Positions 3,034 through 27,708 of a stretch of 55,973 nt of DNA are shown here, piece after piece. Origin of the DNA: Kangiellaceae bacterium (GTDB taxonomy: Bacteria; Pseudomonadota; Gammaproteobacteria; Enterobacterales; Kangiellaceae); contig JABXIQ010000020.1 in the NCBI GenBank assembly GCA_013373015.1, positions 1-55,973 on the forward strand, read 5' to 3'. Numbering within the stretch: the stretch's first letter is position 1; each line of letters begins with the position of its first letter. Below the pieces are notes generated by a model. That model had not been told where the DNA came from. It was given only the letters and a program-made list of their open reading frames with translations, and did not search any database. The position numbers and the translations under genes are program-made.

Positions 3034-3966
3034 ATGACTTTAACCGAATTTCGATATATCGTCGCTGTTGCTCGTGAGCGTCACTTTGGGCGTGCAGCCG
3101 AGGCCTGTTATGTAAGCCAGCCAACGCTCAGTGTTGGAGTGAAAAAGTTAGAAGAGCAGTTAGGTATTACCTTATTTGAACGTAGTAAATCTGATGTGAA
3201 AGTTACTCCAGAGGGCGAGCCGATTATCGAACAAGCGCAACGCATTCTTGAGCAAGTGGGTCAAATGAAGCAGCTGGCCAAGCAAAACTCTGATCAATTG
3301 GACGGCCCTTTAAAAGTCGGAGCCATTTTCACCATTGGTCCTTATTTATTGCCATCTTTAATCCCCATGTTGCGAACCTTAGCACCTAAAATGCCTTTGC
3401 ATATTGATGAAGATTATACCCACAACCTACGCACCAAATTACGCAACGGGGAACTGGATGCGATCTTTATTGCGCTTCCCTTTGATGAGCCTGAAGTGGA
3501 TGTGATTCCTCTATATCAAGAAGAATTTACCGCCCTGTTGCCTGCAAAGCATCCATGGGTAAAAAAAGATAAGCTGCATATACTTGATATTGCAGATGAA
3601 GTGATGATCATGCTCGGTGCAGGTCATTGTTTCCGCGATCAAGTAATAGAGGCTTGTCCACAATGCCAAGATAACAGCTTAAATCCGCAAAAAGATTGGA
3701 TTACTGGCAGCTCTATCGAAACTATCCGTCAAATGGTAGCTAGCGGTTTAGGTGTCAGCGTTATTCCTAATTCTGCCGCCGACTATCACAATGATAAACT
3801 GGGTTTAGTCACTCGCACTTTTGACGATCCCAAACCTAGCCGTCGCGTTGCTTTAGCTTTTAGACGCAGCTTCCCGCGCAAGCAAGCGATAGAACTTATT
3901 CAACAAGCTTTGCAGCAAATTACCATTTCTGGCGCGCAACCTTTACCCAACACCACTACCTCTTAA
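3034..3966 (+). CDS. oxyR: LysR-type peroxide sensor OxyR
   Basis: 310 residues. The N-terminal LysR winged helix (FRYIVAVARERHFGRAAEAC ... SQPTLSVGVKKLE) is followed by a type 2 periplasmic-binding-like sensor domain. The redox pair of OxyR is present: GAGHCFRDQ and IEACPQC place Cys at residues 199 and 208, the same numbers as the disulfide-forming cysteines of E. coli OxyR. An additional Cys at 211 follows. The protein should activate peroxide-defence genes when oxidised. It lies 24 nt upstream of recG on the same strand; oxyR next to recG is common in gammaproteobacteria. Confidence 0.92.
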   Translation: MTLTEFRYIVAVARERHFGRAAEACYVSQPTLSVGVKKLEEQLGITLFERSKSDVKVTPEGEPIIEQAQRILEQVGQMKQLAKQNSDQLDGPLKVGAIFTIGPYLLPSLIPMLRTLAPKMPLHIDEDYTHNLRTKLRNGELDAIFIALPFDEPEVDVIPLYQEEFTALLPAKHPWVKKDKLHILDIADEVMIMLGAGHCFRDQVIEACPQCQDNSLNPQKDWITGSSIETIRQMVASGLGVSVIPNSAADYHNDKLGLVTRTFDDPKPSRRVALAFRRSFPRKQAIELIQQALQQITISGAQPLPNTTTS

Positions 3967-3990
3967 TAGGTTAAACATTCACGAATTCTA

Positions 3991-6093
3991 ATGGCTATTT
4001 CTAAACTTGCTGCCCATGTCAATCTCAACCATTTAGCTTGTACTAGCTTAAAAGGGGTTGGCCCCAAGGTTGCTGAAAAACTTGAGAAATTGCATATCAG
4101 TAACGTATTAGACTTATTACTACATCTACCTTATCGCTATGAAGATCGGACTCAAGTTCGTGACATTGCCACTCTAAAAGATGGCGAGCGAGCACTGATT
4201 AAGGTGACGGTTGAGTTGAGCCAAATTAAATATGGTAAACGCCGCTCCTTGCTATGCCGCGCCAGTGATCAAAGTGCCAGTATTGATTTTCGCTTTTTTT
4301 ATTTCAACAAAAGCCAACAGCAAAGGTTACAACGCGGCGCAGAGCTTTACGCCTTCGGTGAGGTAAAGCGCTTTGGTTATCAGTGGTCGATGGTTCATCC
4401 TGAACTGACTCAAGTTGATTCTAAAGGTGCCGCCCCCCTACTAGAAAGCCTTACACCCGTTTACCCCACTACCGATGGATTACATCAAGCCAGCTTTCGT
4501 CAAATGCAACGACAAGCGGTTGAGTTATTAAAAAAACACCCTATTGAAAACCTTCTGCCGACAAACATAATGCAGGAGTTTCAATTACCTGATATCAATA
4601 GCTCATTGGCATGGATTCATTTACCGCCTAAAGGCGCTGATTTGGCGCAATTAGAATCCAACCAAACGCCTGCCGTAAAACGCTTGATCGTTGAAGAGTT
4701 ATTGGCGCAACAACTGAGCCTACTCAGTCAGCGTTTCCAAAACAAAGAGGATACTGCTTTTGCCATACAGCATAGCGGAGCATTGCAACAGCGTTATCTT
4801 GAATTATTACCATTCAAACCAACAAAAGCGCAGCAGCGAGTCAGCCAAGAGATCATTGATGATATAAGCTCAAATAGGCCAATGTTACGCCTATTGCAAG
4901 GTGATGTTGGTGCGGGCAAAACACTGGTTGCGGCAATTGCAGCCTTGCAAGCCATTGAAGCTGGATTTCAGGTCGCGATCATGGCACCAACAGAAATTTT
5001 GGCCGAACAGCACTTCAATTCTTTTGCCCAATGGTTCGAGCAGCTTGGTATTACTTGCTTATTCCTTGTAGGAAAACTCACTGCCAAACAACGCACTGAT
5101 GCACTGCAACAAATTGCAGATGGACAGGCACAATGCATTATCGGCACCCACGCTCTTTTTCAAAAAGATGTTGAATATCAAAAACTTGGGTTAGCCATAA
5201 TTGATGAACAGCATCGTTTTGGCGTCAATCAACGGCTGGCATTAAAGCAAAAAGCACCTGATGGCTATCAATTGCATCAATTGATGATGACCGCCACACC
5301 GATCCCAAGAACTTTAGCCATGACTGTTTATGCAGACATGGACGTATCGATTATTAATGAATTGCCGCCTGGTCGAACTCCTGTGAAAACCGTGGCGCTT
5401 TCCGATCAAAAGCGTAATCAAATCATCAAAAGTATTCATAAAGCGGTCAAACAAGAGAAGCGACAAGTCTATTGGGTTTGCACATTAATCGATGAATCAG
5501 AAGAAGTGCAATGCCAAGCGGCTGAAACAGCGGCCAATTTATTAACAGAACAACTTGCAGATTGCCGCGTAGGTTTGGTGCATGGCCGACTGAGACCAGA
5601 ACAAAAACAAATGGTTATGCAACAATTTAAGCAAGGTCATTTGGACATTTTAGTCGCCACTACGGTGATTGAAGTAGGTGTCGATGTTCCCAACGCCAGT
5701 TTGATGATCATTGAAAATCCTGAACGTTTGGGGTTGTCGCAACTGCATCAATTGCGCGGACGTGTCGGGCGCGGCAACATTGAGAGCCATTGTATTTTAC
5801 TTTATCAGCACCCGCTTTCGGACAACGCCAAGGCGCGTATTCAGGTTATGCGCGATACCAATGATGGTTTTATCATTGCCGAAGAAGACCTGCGTCTGCG
5901 AGGGCCTGGCGAAATGCTCGGCACGCGCCAAACTGGTGATGTTAGTCTGCGCTTTGCCGATATTGTTCGTGATGCAGAGTTAATTCCTGTAATACAAGAT
6001 CAAGCACGCAGTTTGATGCAACAGGATCCAGAGCTTGCCAATAAGCTGAGCGAGCGCTGGCTTGGTGCGCGACAAGAGTTCGCCGAAGTCTAA
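3991..6093 (+). CDS. recG: ATP-dependent DNA helicase RecG
   Basis: 700 residues, matching the family length. It has an N-terminal wedge/OB-fold (SLKGVGPKVAEKLEKL onward), Walker A GDVGAGKT near residue 305, the DEQHRFG motif II near residue 405, MMTATPIPRT (motif III), and motifs V/VI in TTVIEVGVDVPNA and QLRGRVGRG. RecG remodels stalled replication forks and drives branch migration. The start follows the oxyR stop by 24 nt. Nothing is missing or broken in the sequence. Confidence 0.96.
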   Translation: MAISKLAAHVNLNHLACTSLKGVGPKVAEKLEKLHISNVLDLLLHLPYRYEDRTQVRDIATLKDGERALIKVTVELSQIKYGKRRSLLCRASDQSASIDFRFFYFNKSQQQRLQRGAELYAFGEVKRFGYQWSMVHPELTQVDSKGAAPLLESLTPVYPTTDGLHQASFRQMQRQAVELLKKHPIENLLPTNIMQEFQLPDINSSLAWIHLPPKGADLAQLESNQTPAVKRLIVEELLAQQLSLLSQRFQNKEDTAFAIQHSGALQQRYLELLPFKPTKAQQRVSQEIIDDISSNRPMLRLLQGDVGAGKTLVAAIAALQAIEAGFQVAIMAPTEILAEQHFNSFAQWFEQLGITCLFLVGKLTAKQRTDALQQIADGQAQCIIGTHALFQKDVEYQKLGLAIIDEQHRFGVNQRLALKQKAPDGYQLHQLMMTATPIPRTLAMTVYADMDVSIINELPPGRTPVKTVALSDQKRNQIIKSIHKAVKQEKRQVYWVCTLIDESEEVQCQAAETAANLLTEQLADCRVGLVHGRLRPEQKQMVMQQFKQGHLDILVATTVIEVGVDVPNASLMIIENPERLGLSQLHQLRGRVGRGNIESHCILLYQHPLSDNAKARIQVMRDTNDGFIIAEEDLRLRGPGEMLGTRQTGDVSLRFADIVRDAELIPVIQDQARSLMQQDPELANKLSERWLGARQEFAEV

Positions 6094-6228: not shown

Positions 6229-7206
6229 ATGAAACAGCCTGTTCGCGTTACAGTTACCGGTGCTGCCGGCCAAATTTGTTATTCACTATTATTCCGTATT
6301 GCCAGCGGCGAAATGCTTGGCAATGACCAACCCGTTATTTTGAACCTACTAGAAATCACTCCTGCGCTTAAAGTGTGTGAAGCCGTAGCGATGGAATTAA
6401 ACGATTGTGCTTTCCCACTAGTGAAAGACATCGTTGTAACTGACGACCCTGCTGTTGCTTTCAAAGATGCGCAAATTGGTCTTTTGGTTGGTGCAAAACC
6501 GCGTGGTCCAGGTATGGAGCGTAAAGACCTTATCACTGATAACGGTAAAATCTTTAGCTCATTAGGTAAAGTGATTAATGAAGTTGCTGATAAAAATATC
6601 AAAATTTGTGTGGTAGGAAACCCTGCAAACACAAATGCTTTCATCTTGGCTGCTAATGCTCCAAGCATCAATCAGCGCAACATCACCGCATTAACACGCC
6701 TTGATCATAACCGTGCTTTATACCAATTGGCTGAAAAAGCGGGTGCAGACATTTCTGATATCAAGAAAATGACGATCTGGGGCAACCACTCAGTTACTCA
6801 AGTACCTGATATTGCTTTCGCAACCATTAACGACCAAGATGCAGCTGGTAAAGTTGACGCTACCTGGGCAAAAGAAGACTTTATGCCAACGGTAGCAAAG
6901 CGTGGCGCAGCGGTAATCGCAGCGCGTGGCGCATCATCAGCCGCTTCAGCAGCCAACGCAATCCTCGACCATATGCGCGACTGGTGCTTAGGCTCAGAAG
7001 CTGGTGACTGGGTATCAATGGCAGTTCCTTCAGACGGCTCTTATGGCGTCGAAAAAGGTCTAATCTACTCATACCCAGTTGTGTGCAAAGACGGTGACTA
7101 CGAAATCGTCCAAGGTCTTGAAGTATCTGACTTCATCAAAGGCAAAATGGACGAGTCAGAGCAAGAACTTAAAGAAGAAAAAGAAACAGTTGCTCATTTA
7201 ATCTAA
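6229..7206 (+). CDS. mdh: Malate dehydrogenase
   Basis: 325 residues. The Rossmann motif [16 protein letters not shown] at the N-terminus and the active-site stretch [12 protein letters not shown] (catalytic His) identify an NAD-dependent malate dehydrogenase of the cytosolic-type group (the about 325-aa form found in many proteobacteria), not the 312-aa E. coli form. It interconverts malate and oxaloacetate in the TCA cycle. ATG 6229 is chosen because TTGAGG lies 8 nt upstream; the in-frame extension to 6199 would add ten unlikely residues. A strong terminator follows at 7231. A decayed second copy of its 3' end lies about 1.3 kb downstream (8284-8540). Confidence 0.95.
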
Positions 7207-24409: not shown

Positions 24410-25471
24410 CTAGTTACGCATACTGACAGTAAAGTAAGCTAATTTGCGTTGATTGGTTTGCACCTCAAGCTGCTTTTCAAGATCCAAATATTCTTTATAT
24501 AGATCAATGGACTCTTTCAGTTTGTCATTTTTAGAATGGATAGTCGCCAAATGTTTTGCCGCTTCCATTATACGCACTTTATCATTGGCTTTTTTTGCAG
24601 CTTGATAACCTTTACCAAGATAAACACTGGCCTTATCAATATCATCTAAAGCCAAATAGGTCTCGCCTAATCGAATAGCGTAAATAGTTTTAATCGGCAA
24701 ATAAGTCATTTCATCAACATCCTTTTGCCACTTGGCTAAAACCTCATAGGCCTTCTGAGAATGATTATTATGCAAAAAATATCGGGCTTGTAGCTCACCC
24801 GCTAGCGCTTGAAAAATCGGGTCTTTGGCCTGCTGACAAGCATCATTGAGTTGCTGAATCCTTTCTTCTAATATTTCTAATTGAGAAGCCTGCAACTCCC
24901 AATTTGCCATTTCATAATGACTTACACACTGCTTGATTGGATCGCTACTCTGCTCTGCAATGATCAATAGCTGTCGGCTATAATCCATAGCCTTGCCAAA
25001 TACTCCCGCTTGCTTAAATAGGCTGGCAGCATTTTGAAGTACTGCAAAGCGATGAAAGTCTTGCTCTTTTAATTTAGGCAACAGTTGAAGCGCACTTTTC
25101 GAATGCTCAAATGCTTGCTCCAGCTCACCAGAGAAAAGCAACACATTTGAGAGCATTGAGTGTGCTCGCGCTTTTATTTTAACGAAGGATGTCTGATCAA
25201 TGACCTGATCTAACTCTTGACGAGCCGCAACATAGTTTCCTTGCAATACTAATGAATGCGCTCGAAATATTTTATAGAGACTTTGTTGCTCAAGAGACAA
25301 CTTTTCATACTTCAACTCAAGCTGATCTAGCAATTCTTTAGTCTGTCGCGGATTAGATGTTTTTTTTGATTCAAGATCGATAAAAACTTGCGAAAGATCT
25401 TGTTCTGCCTGAGTTTTTAATGCAAAAGTCAGCAAACTGAATAAAGCAATAATAGCAATCGTTCTAATCAT
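24410..25471 (-). CDS. Exported TPR-repeat protein B in the borosin operon
   Basis: 353 residues. The signal peptide (IRTIAIIALFSLLTFALKTQA) is followed by tandem helical TPR-like repeats to about residue 335 and the C-terminal motif NQRKLAYFTV. It is a paralog of the gene upstream: both share the layout, length and a terminal block of the form YxEYxDxEKxxxxQxxQRKLAY. The repeats resemble the periplasmic TPR sensor domain of TPR-GGDEF or TPR-kinase proteins, but the chain ends where the membrane helix and output domain would begin. It is the last gene of the borosin operon, 13 nt after its paralog. Function unknown. Confidence 0.75.
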   Translation of the reverse strand: MIRTIAIIALFSLLTFALKTQAEQDLSQVFIDLESKKTSNPRQTKELLDQLELKYEKLSLEQQSLYKIFRAHSLVLQGNYVAARQELDQVIDQTSFVKIKARAHSMLSNVLLFSGELEQAFEHSKSALQLLPKLKEQDFHRFAVLQNAASLFKQAGVFGKAMDYSRQLLIIAEQSSDPIKQCVSHYEMANWELQASQLEILEERIQQLNDACQQAKDPIFQALAGELQARYFLHNNHSQKAYEVLAKWQKDVDEMTYLPIKTIYAIRLGETYLALDDIDKASVYLGKGYQAAKKANDKVRIMEAAKHLATIHSKNDKLKESIDLYKEYLDLEKQLEVQTNQRKLAYFTVSMRN

Positions 25472-25484
25472 ACATCATCCAAAG

Positions 25485-26537
25485 TTAGCCTTGATTTTTA
25501 GCCATATAATAAGCCAGCTTTCTTTGTCGCATCTGAATCTTAAACTTTCTCTCAGCGTCTATATACTCTTGATAATATTCAACTGCTTTTTTTTCATTTT
25601 CTCGTTGGCTGTATGCTTTTGCAAGCACCCGAGCAGATTCTTTAATCAGAGGTAAATAGTTCAACTTTTTTGCCAGTTTATAGCCTTTCTCACCCAAGCC
25701 AACACTTTCTTCAACCGCTTTTTTTTCCAACGCCATTTCAGACAATGTAATATGAAAAGAAGAAATAAGCATGTCCCATCCAAAAGTTTCAATATCCTTT
25801 AATTTATTTTTTACTAAATTATAAGCTGTATTTGGGTCATTATCATGCAAACTGATTCTGGCACTTTCTTCTACCAAATAATATTGATAAAGTTTTTGTT
25901 CAGCTAATTGACAATTCTTTTTCGCAATAGAAAAGTTATGCCTCGCGACATCATACTTTTCCATCAATAGCTCTATTTTGCCAGCATTATAATAAGCAAA
26001 ACAATAGTCTTTTGGATCCTGCTCTGGAATGATGACTTTCAATAGATGTTTAGAATAAGGATAGGCTTTATCAATCAAACCTGTTGAAACATAAACGTTA
26101 ACTATATTTACTAAAACATCTTTTCTCGCTAGGTTATCGCTTAGTTCTGACAACATGCCATTAGCCGCTTCAATATTGACAAAAGCATCAATATATTGAC
26201 CTTGAGAAGCCTGAACAACGCCTTTTAGAACCTTTGCTCTAGCTTGATAATTGTTGTCTTGGCTGGTTGCAAGGATCTTATCAAAAGAATTGAGAGCATC
26301 ATCATATAAGCCAGACATCATTTGCGAGTGACCTGAATAAAGATGAAACTTGTCCAGTTGTTCAGGTGTCAGTAATGCTTTATTGCTTTCAACTTTCGAC
26401 AAATGCGTTTTAACTTTTGATAAGTCAATTAAGATGTCTTGTTTTATATCTGCCAATAATTGATCGACCTCGTCAGACTTTCCAGCCGAAGTTACTAGGC
26501 AAATGCAAAGCAATAATATCAATTTCTTAATGTGCAT
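25485..26537 (-). CDS. Exported TPR-repeat protein A in the borosin operon
   Basis: 350 residues from ATG 26537, chosen because GGGAG lies 5 nt upstream (a GTG at 26543 is also in frame). Signal peptide (HIKKLILLLCICLVTSAG), then TPR-like helical repeats and the ending QRKLAYYMAKNQG. It is a tandem paralog of the downstream gene. It starts 40 nt after the stop of the backbone N-methyltransferase gene, on the same strand, so it is very probably in the same transcript. A role in sensing, exporting or binding the methylated peptide is possible but is inference from context only. Confidence 0.75.
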   Translation of the reverse strand: MHIKKLILLLCICLVTSAGKSDEVDQLLADIKQDILIDLSKVKTHLSKVESNKALLTPEQLDKFHLYSGHSQMMSGLYDDALNSFDKILATSQDNNYQARAKVLKGVVQASQGQYIDAFVNIEAANGMLSELSDNLARKDVLVNIVNVYVSTGLIDKAYPYSKHLLKVIIPEQDPKDYCFAYYNAGKIELLMEKYDVARHNFSIAKKNCQLAEQKLYQYYLVEESARISLHDNDPNTAYNLVKNKLKDIETFGWDMLISSFHITLSEMALEKKAVEESVGLGEKGYKLAKKLNYLPLIKESARVLAKAYSQRENEKKAVEYYQEYIDAERKFKIQMRQRKLAYYMAKNQG

Positions 26538-26577
26538 CCTCACTCCCTACGATTAACCAAGCTAAAGCTAATGACAA

Positions 26578-27372
26578 CTAGCGTGCGGCTATCTGCTGTT
26601 CTGATATACCAAACATATCTAAAACGTCCTGATTTGCTTGAAGACTTCTTGACGGAGGAATGACCAGTGTAGTTTTAGGATTCAACTCGGCGTCGGGTAA
26701 ATCTTTCAAAGCAACAGTTTCAGCCCTAAAAGTTTCTATGGGCAAAACCGCCGCTTCGTACAAGATAACATTATGCGATAATGGATACCATTTTTTTAGA
26801 TGACTGACGAATATTTCAACCCACTCTTTTTTTGTTTCAAACTGCTTGGCGGTATACTCTCCCACCAAACCAATTTGCCACATAATTGCATAAGCAGAGT
26901 TGTTAAGCTCTTGATTATAAAATAAAAATTGAGAAGCCTCGTATCCTTGTATTCCGCTCTCACCAGGGTCAATCGCCAGATCAGCATATAAACACGCCTC
27001 AGCTGATACTCCCGGCTCCATATGTGCTCTAAAACCTTCTTTCACAGCCTGTTTCACTGCCATGCGCGGCACATAAGCGAAAACGCCTGCATGACCATAA
27101 AAAGCCCCGCATACTTTTTTACCCATTCGGACATCTTGTAGCATCGCATCAATCATCTCCTCATATGACTGCATACGATGTTTACCCTTTGCATAAAATG
27201 GCTGCAAACTTTTCACATTAGAATTAAGCGTGTGTATCCAGACCTCGCCTAAACTATGCGGCATTAAGCAGTAAACCACATCGGCTTGCTCAATATAGCT
27301 TCTGGAAATTTTCGAAATATGTCCCGCTAAATTCATGCCGGTACTGACGGCGACAAATTGTCCTTTTAGCAT
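26578..27372 (-). CDS. Borosin-type peptide alpha-N-methyltransferase (split, SonM-like)
   Basis: 264 residues of the tetrapyrrole (corrin/porphyrin) methylase fold. It matches the catalytic domain of fungal OphMA block by block: YAKGKHRMQSYEEM, DVRMGKKVCGAFYGHAGVFA, MEPGVSAEACLYADLAIDPG and GYEASQFLFY. Tyr60, Arg66, Tyr70 and Tyr92 correspond to OphMA Tyr66, Arg72, Tyr76 and Tyr98, residues used in amide N-methylation. Unlike the fungal enzymes it has no fused core peptide; the substrate is encoded immediately upstream with a 1-nt gap. This is the split-borosin arrangement known from Shewanella SonM/SonA. It should iteratively N-methylate the backbone of the partner peptide. Confidence 0.9.
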   Translation of the reverse strand: MLKGQFVAVSTGMNLAGHISKISRSYIEQADVVYCLMPHSLGEVWIHTLNSNVKSLQPFYAKGKHRMQSYEEMIDAMLQDVRMGKKVCGAFYGHAGVFAYVPRMAVKQAVKEGFRAHMEPGVSAEACLYADLAIDPGESGIQGYEASQFLFYNQELNNSAYAIMWQIGLVGEYTAKQFETKKEWVEIFVSHLKKWYPLSHNVILYEAAVLPIETFRAETVALKDLPDAELNPKTTLVIPPSRSLQANQDVLDMFGISEQQIAAR

Positions 27373-27373
27373 T

Positions 27374-27595
27374 TTACTTCTTCATTAGAGTGATAATTCC
27401 CGTGATATAACACTCCATATCACTACCTAATAATTTATTAATCTCTTTCGTCTCACCTTTTAGAATAGTTTTAATATCTGTTTCATCCAAGCCTGCACCA
27501 CGCATCACAGCTTTTGGATTTTCAACATAAGATTCCATTAGTTTTGCATCTTCACTCAATCGAATTACAAACTCTTCAAGTTTTTTATTTGCCAT
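27374..27595 (-). CDS. Split-borosin precursor peptide (SonA-like)
   Basis: 73 residues from ATG 27595, with AAAGGAG 8 nt upstream; a longer frame to 27628 lacks such support. The helical leader (LEEFVIRLSEDAKLMESY, ENPKAVMRGAGLDETDIKTIL) has the layout of a borosin-binding domain. The C-terminal tail from about residue 60 (MECYITGIITLMKK) is short, beta-branched and hydrophobic, as expected of the region that receives N-methyl groups. The stop is 1 nt before the methyltransferase ATG. The assignment rests on the partner gene, size and leader pattern. Which residues are methylated, and whether the tail is released, cannot be told. Confidence 0.85.
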   Translation of the reverse strand: MANKKLEEFVIRLSEDAKLMESYVENPKAVMRGAGLDETDIKTILKGETKEINKLLGSDMECYITGIITLMKK

Positions 27596-27654
27596 TGTCA
27601 CATCTCCTTTCACGATTTCATTATTCAAATATGCATAGAAATTATCGTATCTTC

Positions 27655-27683
27655 ATCAAAAAAGCCAGCAAATGCTGGCTTTT
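27655..27683 (-). terminator. Rho-independent terminator of gcvP
   Basis: On the minus strand: AAAAGCCAGC, loop ATTT, GCTGGCTTTT and further T. It lies 26 nt after the gcvP stop and separates gcvP from the borosin operon, whose promoter must therefore lie in the approximately 60 bases up to 27596. Confidence 0.9.
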
Positions 27684-27708
27684 CATTTCAGTGATACAAT
27701 CCGTAAAC

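Follow-up and report, generated by a model that had tools for sequence, protein, structure and literature searches.

Type IV borosins are defined by a methyltransferase (MT) and a precursor encoded by separate genes, and the closest described system to the one reported here is SonM/SonA of Shewanella oneidensis, in which an MT of ~263 amino acids (aa) and a precursor of ~70 aa with a five-helix leader are encoded by adjacent genes; SonM residues Y58, R67, Y71 and Y93 matter for methyltransferase function and the methylated residues of SonA are L63 and I65 (PMC8429565, PDB 7LTC). We analyzed a stretch of 55,973 nucleotides (nt) from a Kangiellaceae bacterium (GCA_013373015.1, contig JABXIQ010000020.1, positions 1–55,973), hereafter the window, which contains a cassette at 24410–27595 of four minus-strand genes in the order precursor, MT, TPR1 and TPR2, flanked by gcvP and mutH. 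The cassette resembles SonM/SonA in its separate, adjacent and similarly sized MT and precursor genes, its predicted five-helix leader and its catalytic residues, whereas its precursor precedes the MT, unlike in SonM/SonA. Split borosins are already known, and the new part is the pair of tetratricopeptide repeat (TPR) proteins and the sensor partnership to which they belong.

The association of borosins with GGDEF domains is partly published, because the legend of Figure 1 in PMC11395268 names a GGDEF domain in some borosin architecture. The terms TPR and tetratricopeptide are absent from PMC11395268, and both terms and GGDEF are absent from the main text of PMC8429565. Literature searches returned only PMC11395268 for borosin with GGDEF and nothing for borosin with diguanylate, in a search that did not extend to the field's main papers, so any claim of priority is provisional. 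The literature searched made no mention of shewanellamide, none of the papers listed for SO1480 contains that term, and the portions examined stated no biological role for bacterial split borosins.

Two described TPR systems are also relevant. Rap–Phr receptors are cytoplasmic and their pheromone is unmodified. Their structures, determined together with a short peptide ligand that acts as the signal (8rsv, 4gyo, 6t46), show a TPR superhelix of ~360 residues, and no sequence family common to them and the window TPRs is shown. In Vibrio vulnificus, RcbA, a TPR protein without a GGDEF domain, works with the TPR-GGDEF cyclase RcbB (PMC12282931), much as TPR-only proteins like those in the window might; that paper mentions neither methyltransferases nor ribosomally synthesized and post-translationally modified peptides (RiPPs), is absent from the search results for borosin with GGDEF, and the likeness is one of architecture.

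Borosin identity of the methyltransferase and precursor

The MT (26578–27372, 264 aa; all features given here are on the minus strand) matched SonM (7ltc_A) at E = 2.6e-81 with phmmer and fungal OphMA-type chains at E = 7e-42 to 1e-36, while its Pfam match was TP_methylase (E = 4.3e-11). SonM Y58/R67/Y71/Y93 align with Y60/R66/Y70/Y92 of the window MT, and these four residues were conserved in 126/126, 125/126, 126/126 and 126/126 aligned MTs, respectively. The precursor (27374–27595, 73 aa), which ends 1 nt before the MT, matched SonA (7ltc_B) at E = 3.9e-9 (phmmer). Its AlphaFold model, with a mean predicted local distance difference test (pLDDT) of 79, has helices at residues 4–15, 17–25, 27–33, 38–46 and 49–56, such that the leader (residues 4–56) forms a five-helix bundle followed by a flexible hydrophobic tail ending CYITGIITLMKK. 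The first 25 Foldseek matches of this model were all SonA chains, with leader-only alignments at 0.8–1.1 Å over ~50 residues, alignments that take in the tail mostly at 5–8 Å, and weak E values (3e-3 to 3e-2) that reflect the small size of the protein.

The predicted core region, precursor residues 57–73 (27377–27427), has no secondary structure and low model confidence and aligns with the SonA tail holding L63 and I65. It is the probable site of backbone N-methylation, judging from sequence and model, with the limit that the tail alignment can be shifted and the methylated residues are not assignable with certainty. Separate MT and precursor genes, the four catalytic residues and the predicted five-helix leader are all found here, as in type IV systems, and we regard the predicted type IV (split) borosin as real because sequence, catalytic residues, modeled leader fold and synteny agree; methylation of the peptide is predicted by homology. 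A previous sequence-only reading had proposed this same split layout, with four genes at these positions, an OphMA-like MT that keeps its key Tyr and Arg residues, and, 1 nt upstream, a 73-aa peptide with a helical leader and a short hydrophobic tail, and each of these points was borne out.

A TPR sensor family beside borosin methyltransferases

Loci were taken from two lists of MT matches, of which a subset was fetched, and were chosen for the MT and not for TPR genes; the second locus set was hand-picked for diversity, blind to TPR genes. The resulting linkage sample comprised 128 MT open reading frames (ORFs) at 122 loci in 85 genomes, spanning 25 genus codes and 9 family codes, and was searched with a sensor profile built from the TPR cluster seen beside nearly every MT in the first 81 loci. 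A same-strand sensor ORF lay within 1 kb of 116/128 MT ORFs, and 124/128 had one within 3.5 kb. Of the other 12 MT ORFs, one had its sensor within 1 kb but on the opposite strand, seven had one at 1–3.5 kb and four had none (L058 and L113, both near contig ends, L105 and L146). Loci fetched later (L128–L167) provide a fairer test of linkage because the profile was derived from the first 81, and these had a sensor within 1 kb in 38/40, at 1.1 kb in one and none in one.

Among the 116 close sensors, 69 carried a GGDEF domain, 23 a kinase and 24 neither, based on a GGDEF model made from one protein and kinase calls made from two. The 24 sensors without an output call included 16 at the Kangiella gcvP locus, four of 368–393 aa that have a membrane helix but lack an output (L114, L159, L160, L162), and four of 440–617 aa, of which three end in an apparently worn GGDEF domain, judged by eye (L094, L104, L148), and one is cut by a contig end (L153). 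Pfam searches on ten proteins from neighboring genes identified either GGDEF or HATPase as the output, the latter usually accompanied by HisKA and sometimes by receivers and Hpt; the ten also included a GNAT protein, a peptidase and one kinase without TPR. The usual sensor topology in a hydropathy scan was an N-terminal segment, ~350 residues, one membrane helix at ~380–400 and then the output, with the helix at residues 350–380 in many kinase forms.

Across 394 genomes of the order, 82 had both an MT and a sensor, 6 a sensor only, 13 an MT only and 293 neither (Fisher p = 9e-63, a test that ignores shared ancestry; G382 and G397 were entered by hand from the genome table). Near-identical copies of the SonM locus share this partnership: two Shewanella loci (L128, L129) encode an MT 98–99% identical to SonM with a precursor and a 595-aa TPR-GGDEF protein downstream, the latter 260 nt from the MT in L128 and 560 nt in L129, where two precursor ORFs lie between. 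In these near-SonM loci the TPR is fused to GGDEF, whereas the window has two TPR copies, both soluble and without an output. That the window pair is sensor-like is strongly supported, and in the order one TPR sensor family accompanies borosin MTs almost constantly, most often with a GGDEF or histidine kinase domain fused to it.

We considered whether the TPR pair are chance neighbors, which the linkage across MT loci, a profile search within the genus (below) and the order-wide co-occurrence rule out. Sensor linkage as a rule for all borosins was likewise rejected, as only 2/7 class-level loci outside the order have an adjoining sensor-family ORF (L198 and L199, the MT of the latter positioned from its search match as it was not picked as an ORF in the locus map), and a third (L203) has only a weak match (E = 5e-5) ~4 kb off. 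Farther afield, an Azospirillum plasmid locus yielded nothing informative, and on a Bradyrhizobium plasmid (L188) the genes next to a divergent borosin MT encode a TauD-type dioxygenase and a prolyl oligopeptidase instead, a borosin cluster of another kind.

Architecture of TPR1 and TPR2

TPR1 (25485–26537, 350 aa) and its tandem paralogue TPR2 (24410–25471, 353 aa) have TPR_12 matches in Pfam (E = 1.7e-11 and 6.8e-10), and each has one N-terminal hydrophobic segment and no further one in a simple hydropathy scan. Aligned with the other sensors, both stop short of the coiled linker and membrane helix, with their ends within ~8 residues of a conserved LAY/LAF motif. Pfam, hydropathy and alignment found no membrane helix and no GGDEF or kinase output in either protein, and because these are absent the pair represents a derived, output-less branch of the family. 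The sequence-only reading had described two tandem exported TPR proteins that end as the sensor portion of a TPR-GGDEF or TPR-kinase protein does, in a cassette without a protease, and this description holds: the cassette contains no protease gene, and its neighbors are gcvP and mutH.

Two cysteines of TPR1, C179 and C209, are placed on two antiparallel helices of one repeat, and TPR2 has the aligned pair. Both cysteines were present in 119/148 sensors and a single one in 0/148. By class, the pair occurred in 80/80 GGDEF forms, 34/35 TPR-only forms and 3/3 of the worn-GGDEF group; the TPR-only sensor without it came from L137, outside the Kangiella gcvP locus, while all 34 Kangiella gcvP-locus sensors of the set had it (five from L168–L171 are excluded from this count and from the tree below). 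This pattern fits a putative periplasmic disulfide. TPR1 was modeled by AlphaFold as a helical-repeat superhelix (pLDDT 94.8, predicted template modeling score 0.87), and Foldseek matched it first to LGN complexes and then to Rap proteins with pheromones (8rsv, 4gyo, 6t46) at template modeling scores of ~0.60–0.64. Rap proteins are thus the nearest solved bacterial folds, at 11–16% identity and with no Rap-type family among the Pfam matches. This fold match is only permissive evidence, because any TPR superhelix may give such matches. The LGN and Rap structures presumably hold linear peptides in their groove, with which the entry titles agree.

Conservation and divergence of the Kangiella locus

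MT matches at E ≤ 1e-30 were found in 57/119 relatives, including 19/19 genus relatives, and three Kangiella records have an MT at 67–70% identity. One to four TPR-only genes occur at the gcvP locus in 20/20 genus genomes (the G003 contig ends before mutH), and MT plus precursor lie between gcvP and mutH in 16/20, being missing from G004, G010, G012 and G017. A sensor profile search of the 20 genomes gave 60 matches at E ≤ 6.7e-52, the next being at 2.6e-29; 55 of the 60 belonged to MT loci, and the remaining 5 came from the four genomes whose gcvP locus has no MT or precursor. The proposed co-occurrence of TPR and borosin genes is therefore positive, with the qualification that 4/20 genus genomes keep the TPR gene or genes without MT and precursor. 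These four (L168–L171) have only TPR-only genes between gcvP and mutH, the MT and precursor having been either lost or never gained.

In FastTree trees, the 34 Kangiella TPR-only proteins formed one starred group among sensors, and the 17 MTs with TPR-only partners formed one group in the MT tree (98). Because the proteins and their partner MTs each form one group, the output-less form at the Kangiella gcvP locus likely arose once. Distances between MTs were correlated with those between their sensors among 96 pairs with GGDEF, kinase or worn-GGDEF partners (ρ = 0.69), and among 65 pairs in 31 multi-system genomes (ρ = 0.65), a value that 0/1000 within-genome swaps reached (mean 0.34, max 0.55). 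Compared with three near species, identity was 34–36% for TPR1/2, 53–55% for the precursor, 69–70% for the MT and 76–87% for flanking genes. The TPRs are thus the fastest-changing genes of the locus, which may reflect a role as receptors of changing ligands, with relaxed constraint also possible.

Several loci show duplication, another gene order or possible decay. In G005 (L050), a partial mutH duplicate at 3608–4012 lies between TPR genes, which suggests that tandem duplication expanded the TPR array and took a piece of mutH with it. L040 has the gene order precursor-MT-MT-precursor-TPR, an arrangement of the type that would explain precursor-MT here versus MT-precursor elsewhere. In G006 (L054), G013 (L056), G019 (L057) and G017 (L080), MT frames of ~245 aa with a reported internal stop adjoin an intact TPR-GGDEF gene, and in three of these four genomes an intact MT lies ~2 kb from the stop-bearing one.

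The genome of the window itself has a second borosin locus (L003) on another contig, with an MT, a small ORF and a TPR-GGDEF gene. This small ORF (6587–6832, between the MT and the TPR-GGDEF gene) has the tail VCAILVPAEDDEDD and little leader similarity to SonA, and its relatives fall in clusters 16, 49 and 95. L003-type small ORFs are likely a second precursor family served by the same enzyme and receptor families. The precursor profile, which combined SonA-like peptides with small ORFs accepted as precursors by position and tail, cannot prove them to be precursors because it was built partly from those ORFs.

Proposed mechanism and alternative readings

With moderate confidence, we read the operon as making a peptide signal or ligand, with TPR1 and TPR2 as receptor-type binding proteins without an output domain; we infer the binding, export and proteolysis of the methylated peptide. 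By homology, the five-helix leader would dock on the SonM-like enzyme, and backbone amides of the short hydrophobic tail would be methylated. The tail may then be freed by a housekeeping protease, invoked because the locus has no protease gene, and may cross the inner membrane and leave the cell unaided, perhaps helped by the membrane permeability that PMC8429565 gives as a property of N-methylated peptides. In the periplasm it would bind in the groove of the disulfide-stapled TPR superhelix, as the partner family suggests. In most relatives examined, a one-pass membrane protein carries this superhelix on its outer side and a diguanylate cyclase or histidine kinase on its inner side, such that ligand binding would alter cyclic di-GMP (c-di-GMP) or phosphorelay. 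At the gcvP locus the linker, membrane helix and output are absent, so the TPRs would act as soluble periplasmic binders passing on or withholding the peptide and, being soluble, would need another partner. They would thus receive or sense the methylated peptide, with a role in transport less favored.

An operon predicted to pair a backbone-methylated peptide with two exported proteins that resemble detached sensing halves of receptors suggests that methylated peptides are bacterial signals. More tentatively, and at somewhat less than even chances, ribosomal peptides that are docked by their leader and backbone-methylated in the cytoplasm may constitute a Gram-negative signal class. They would need no dedicated exporter to cross membranes and would be read by periplasmic TPR receptors, stapled by a disulfide in the GGDEF branch, that drive histidine kinases or the synthesis of c-di-GMP, with one Kangiella receptor set now soluble, multiplying and fast-diverging binders. 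A near-constant receptor-like partner, present also beside near-identical copies of SonM, makes the role of borosins directly testable. If SonA-2Me or its processed core alters the activity of the adjacent TPR-GGDEF protein, RiPP chemistry would be joined to c-di-GMP or phosphorelay signaling via a periplasmic TPR receptor.

Several findings weigh against the signal–receptor reading. The cassette has no transporter or protease and the precursor no signal peptide on inspection, so that the sequence leaves unexplained how a cytoplasmic product would meet a periplasmic TPR. Physical linkage alone could produce the correlation between MT and sensor distances, and TPR superhelices resemble one another, so the likeness to Rap says little about the ligand. 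The cysteine pair occurs in only 2/25 kinase forms and in 0/5 of those whose membrane helix is not followed by an output. Among the sensor matches listed (n = 150), 131 had an MT within 5 kb; the other 19 comprised 5 at the Kangiella gcvP locus and 14 orphans elsewhere. Of these orphans 13/14 were fetched, some as short stretches, with no MT or precursor found (L186, also fetched, is an MT locus); because orphans occur, the sensor family can exist without a linked borosin. In three orphan loci the family TPR-GGDEF gene lies beside a maltose-type ATP-binding cassette operon, by Pfam in L179 and L180 and by gene sizes only in L187.

Alternatively, the TPR sensor may respond to a different cue in the envelope and thereby control borosin production or release, with the peptide as an effector such as an antibiotic or metal ligand and not the signal. 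Biosynthetic operons often have their own regulators, GGDEF and kinases are general outputs, and orphan sensors exist. Nearly every borosin locus of the order would nevertheless have to share such a cue, yet the TPRs have diverged more than the genes around them, and the window TPRs have no output to regulate with; we consider this explanation unlikely, if the strongest of the alternatives.

Rather less probable is that the TPR-only proteins serve family TPR-GGDEF receptors encoded elsewhere in the genome as regulatory subunits or decoys, by the precedent of RcbA acting on RcbB (PMC12282931). The TPR-GGDEF gene at the second borosin locus of this genome (L003) is consistent with such a role, as is the presence of two other borosin loci with TPR-GGDEF in each of the four genomes with MT-unlinked TPR-only genes. 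G018 (99% complete), however, has only the gcvP-locus MT and TPR-only genes and no other family match at E ≤ 1e-15, and G009 (100%) is alike except for one distant 766-aa TPR protein (E = 3.4e-27). Because G018 has none, the TPR-only proteins cannot be solely helpers of family TPR-GGDEF receptors, and they may be so in other genomes.

The soluble form in Kangiella and the lack of a protease or transporter at the locus would also suit TPRs that are maturation or export factors, acting as a chaperone or scaffold of the periplasm to which the peptide is handed for processing; other lineages would then have gained the signaling domains. Scaffolding is a frequent task of TPR proteins, but the common form of the family has a cytoplasmic enzymatic output, which export does not need, and we find this role improbable. 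That the MT is an ordinary tetrapyrrole or cobalamin methylase, which rests on the broad Pfam name TP_methylase only, or that the MT–precursor pair has decayed, as the four MT matches with a reported internal stop elsewhere in the genus might hint, is scarcely credible against the SonM match, the key residues, the intact frame, the cognate precursor and the conserved synteny.

Proteases do occur at borosin loci of other genera. An A1-type aspartyl-protease-like gene precedes the MT, and a TPR-GGDEF gene follows it, at ten loci (L046, L053, L061, L072, L084, L085, L087, L089, L091 and L101), with a GNAT gene between protease and MT in 9/10 and PF00026 in 3/3 proteases tested. There is thus a hint of a candidate maturation protease in these ten loci, and proteolysis is perhaps part of the pathway in those genera.

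Transcription unit and start sites

A hairpin with a T-run lies 3′ of gcvP at 27659–27684 and probably terminates the gcv unit, which would set the cassette apart from it; the RNA fold of 27648–27708 has −17.7 kcal/mol (z = −3.48), and the hairpin was not among the calls of a simple terminator scan. The precursor gene is preceded by an AAAGGAG ribosome-binding site at 27604–27610. With the hairpin behind gcvP and AAAGGAG before the precursor, the cassette is likely a transcription unit separate from gcv. Promoter-like sites in a promoter scan were at chance (9 found versus 10.8 expected). TPR1 begins 34 nt downstream of the MT by its listed GTG start at 26543, and the sequence makes the ATG at 26537, with GGGAG at 26543–26547, the more likely start.

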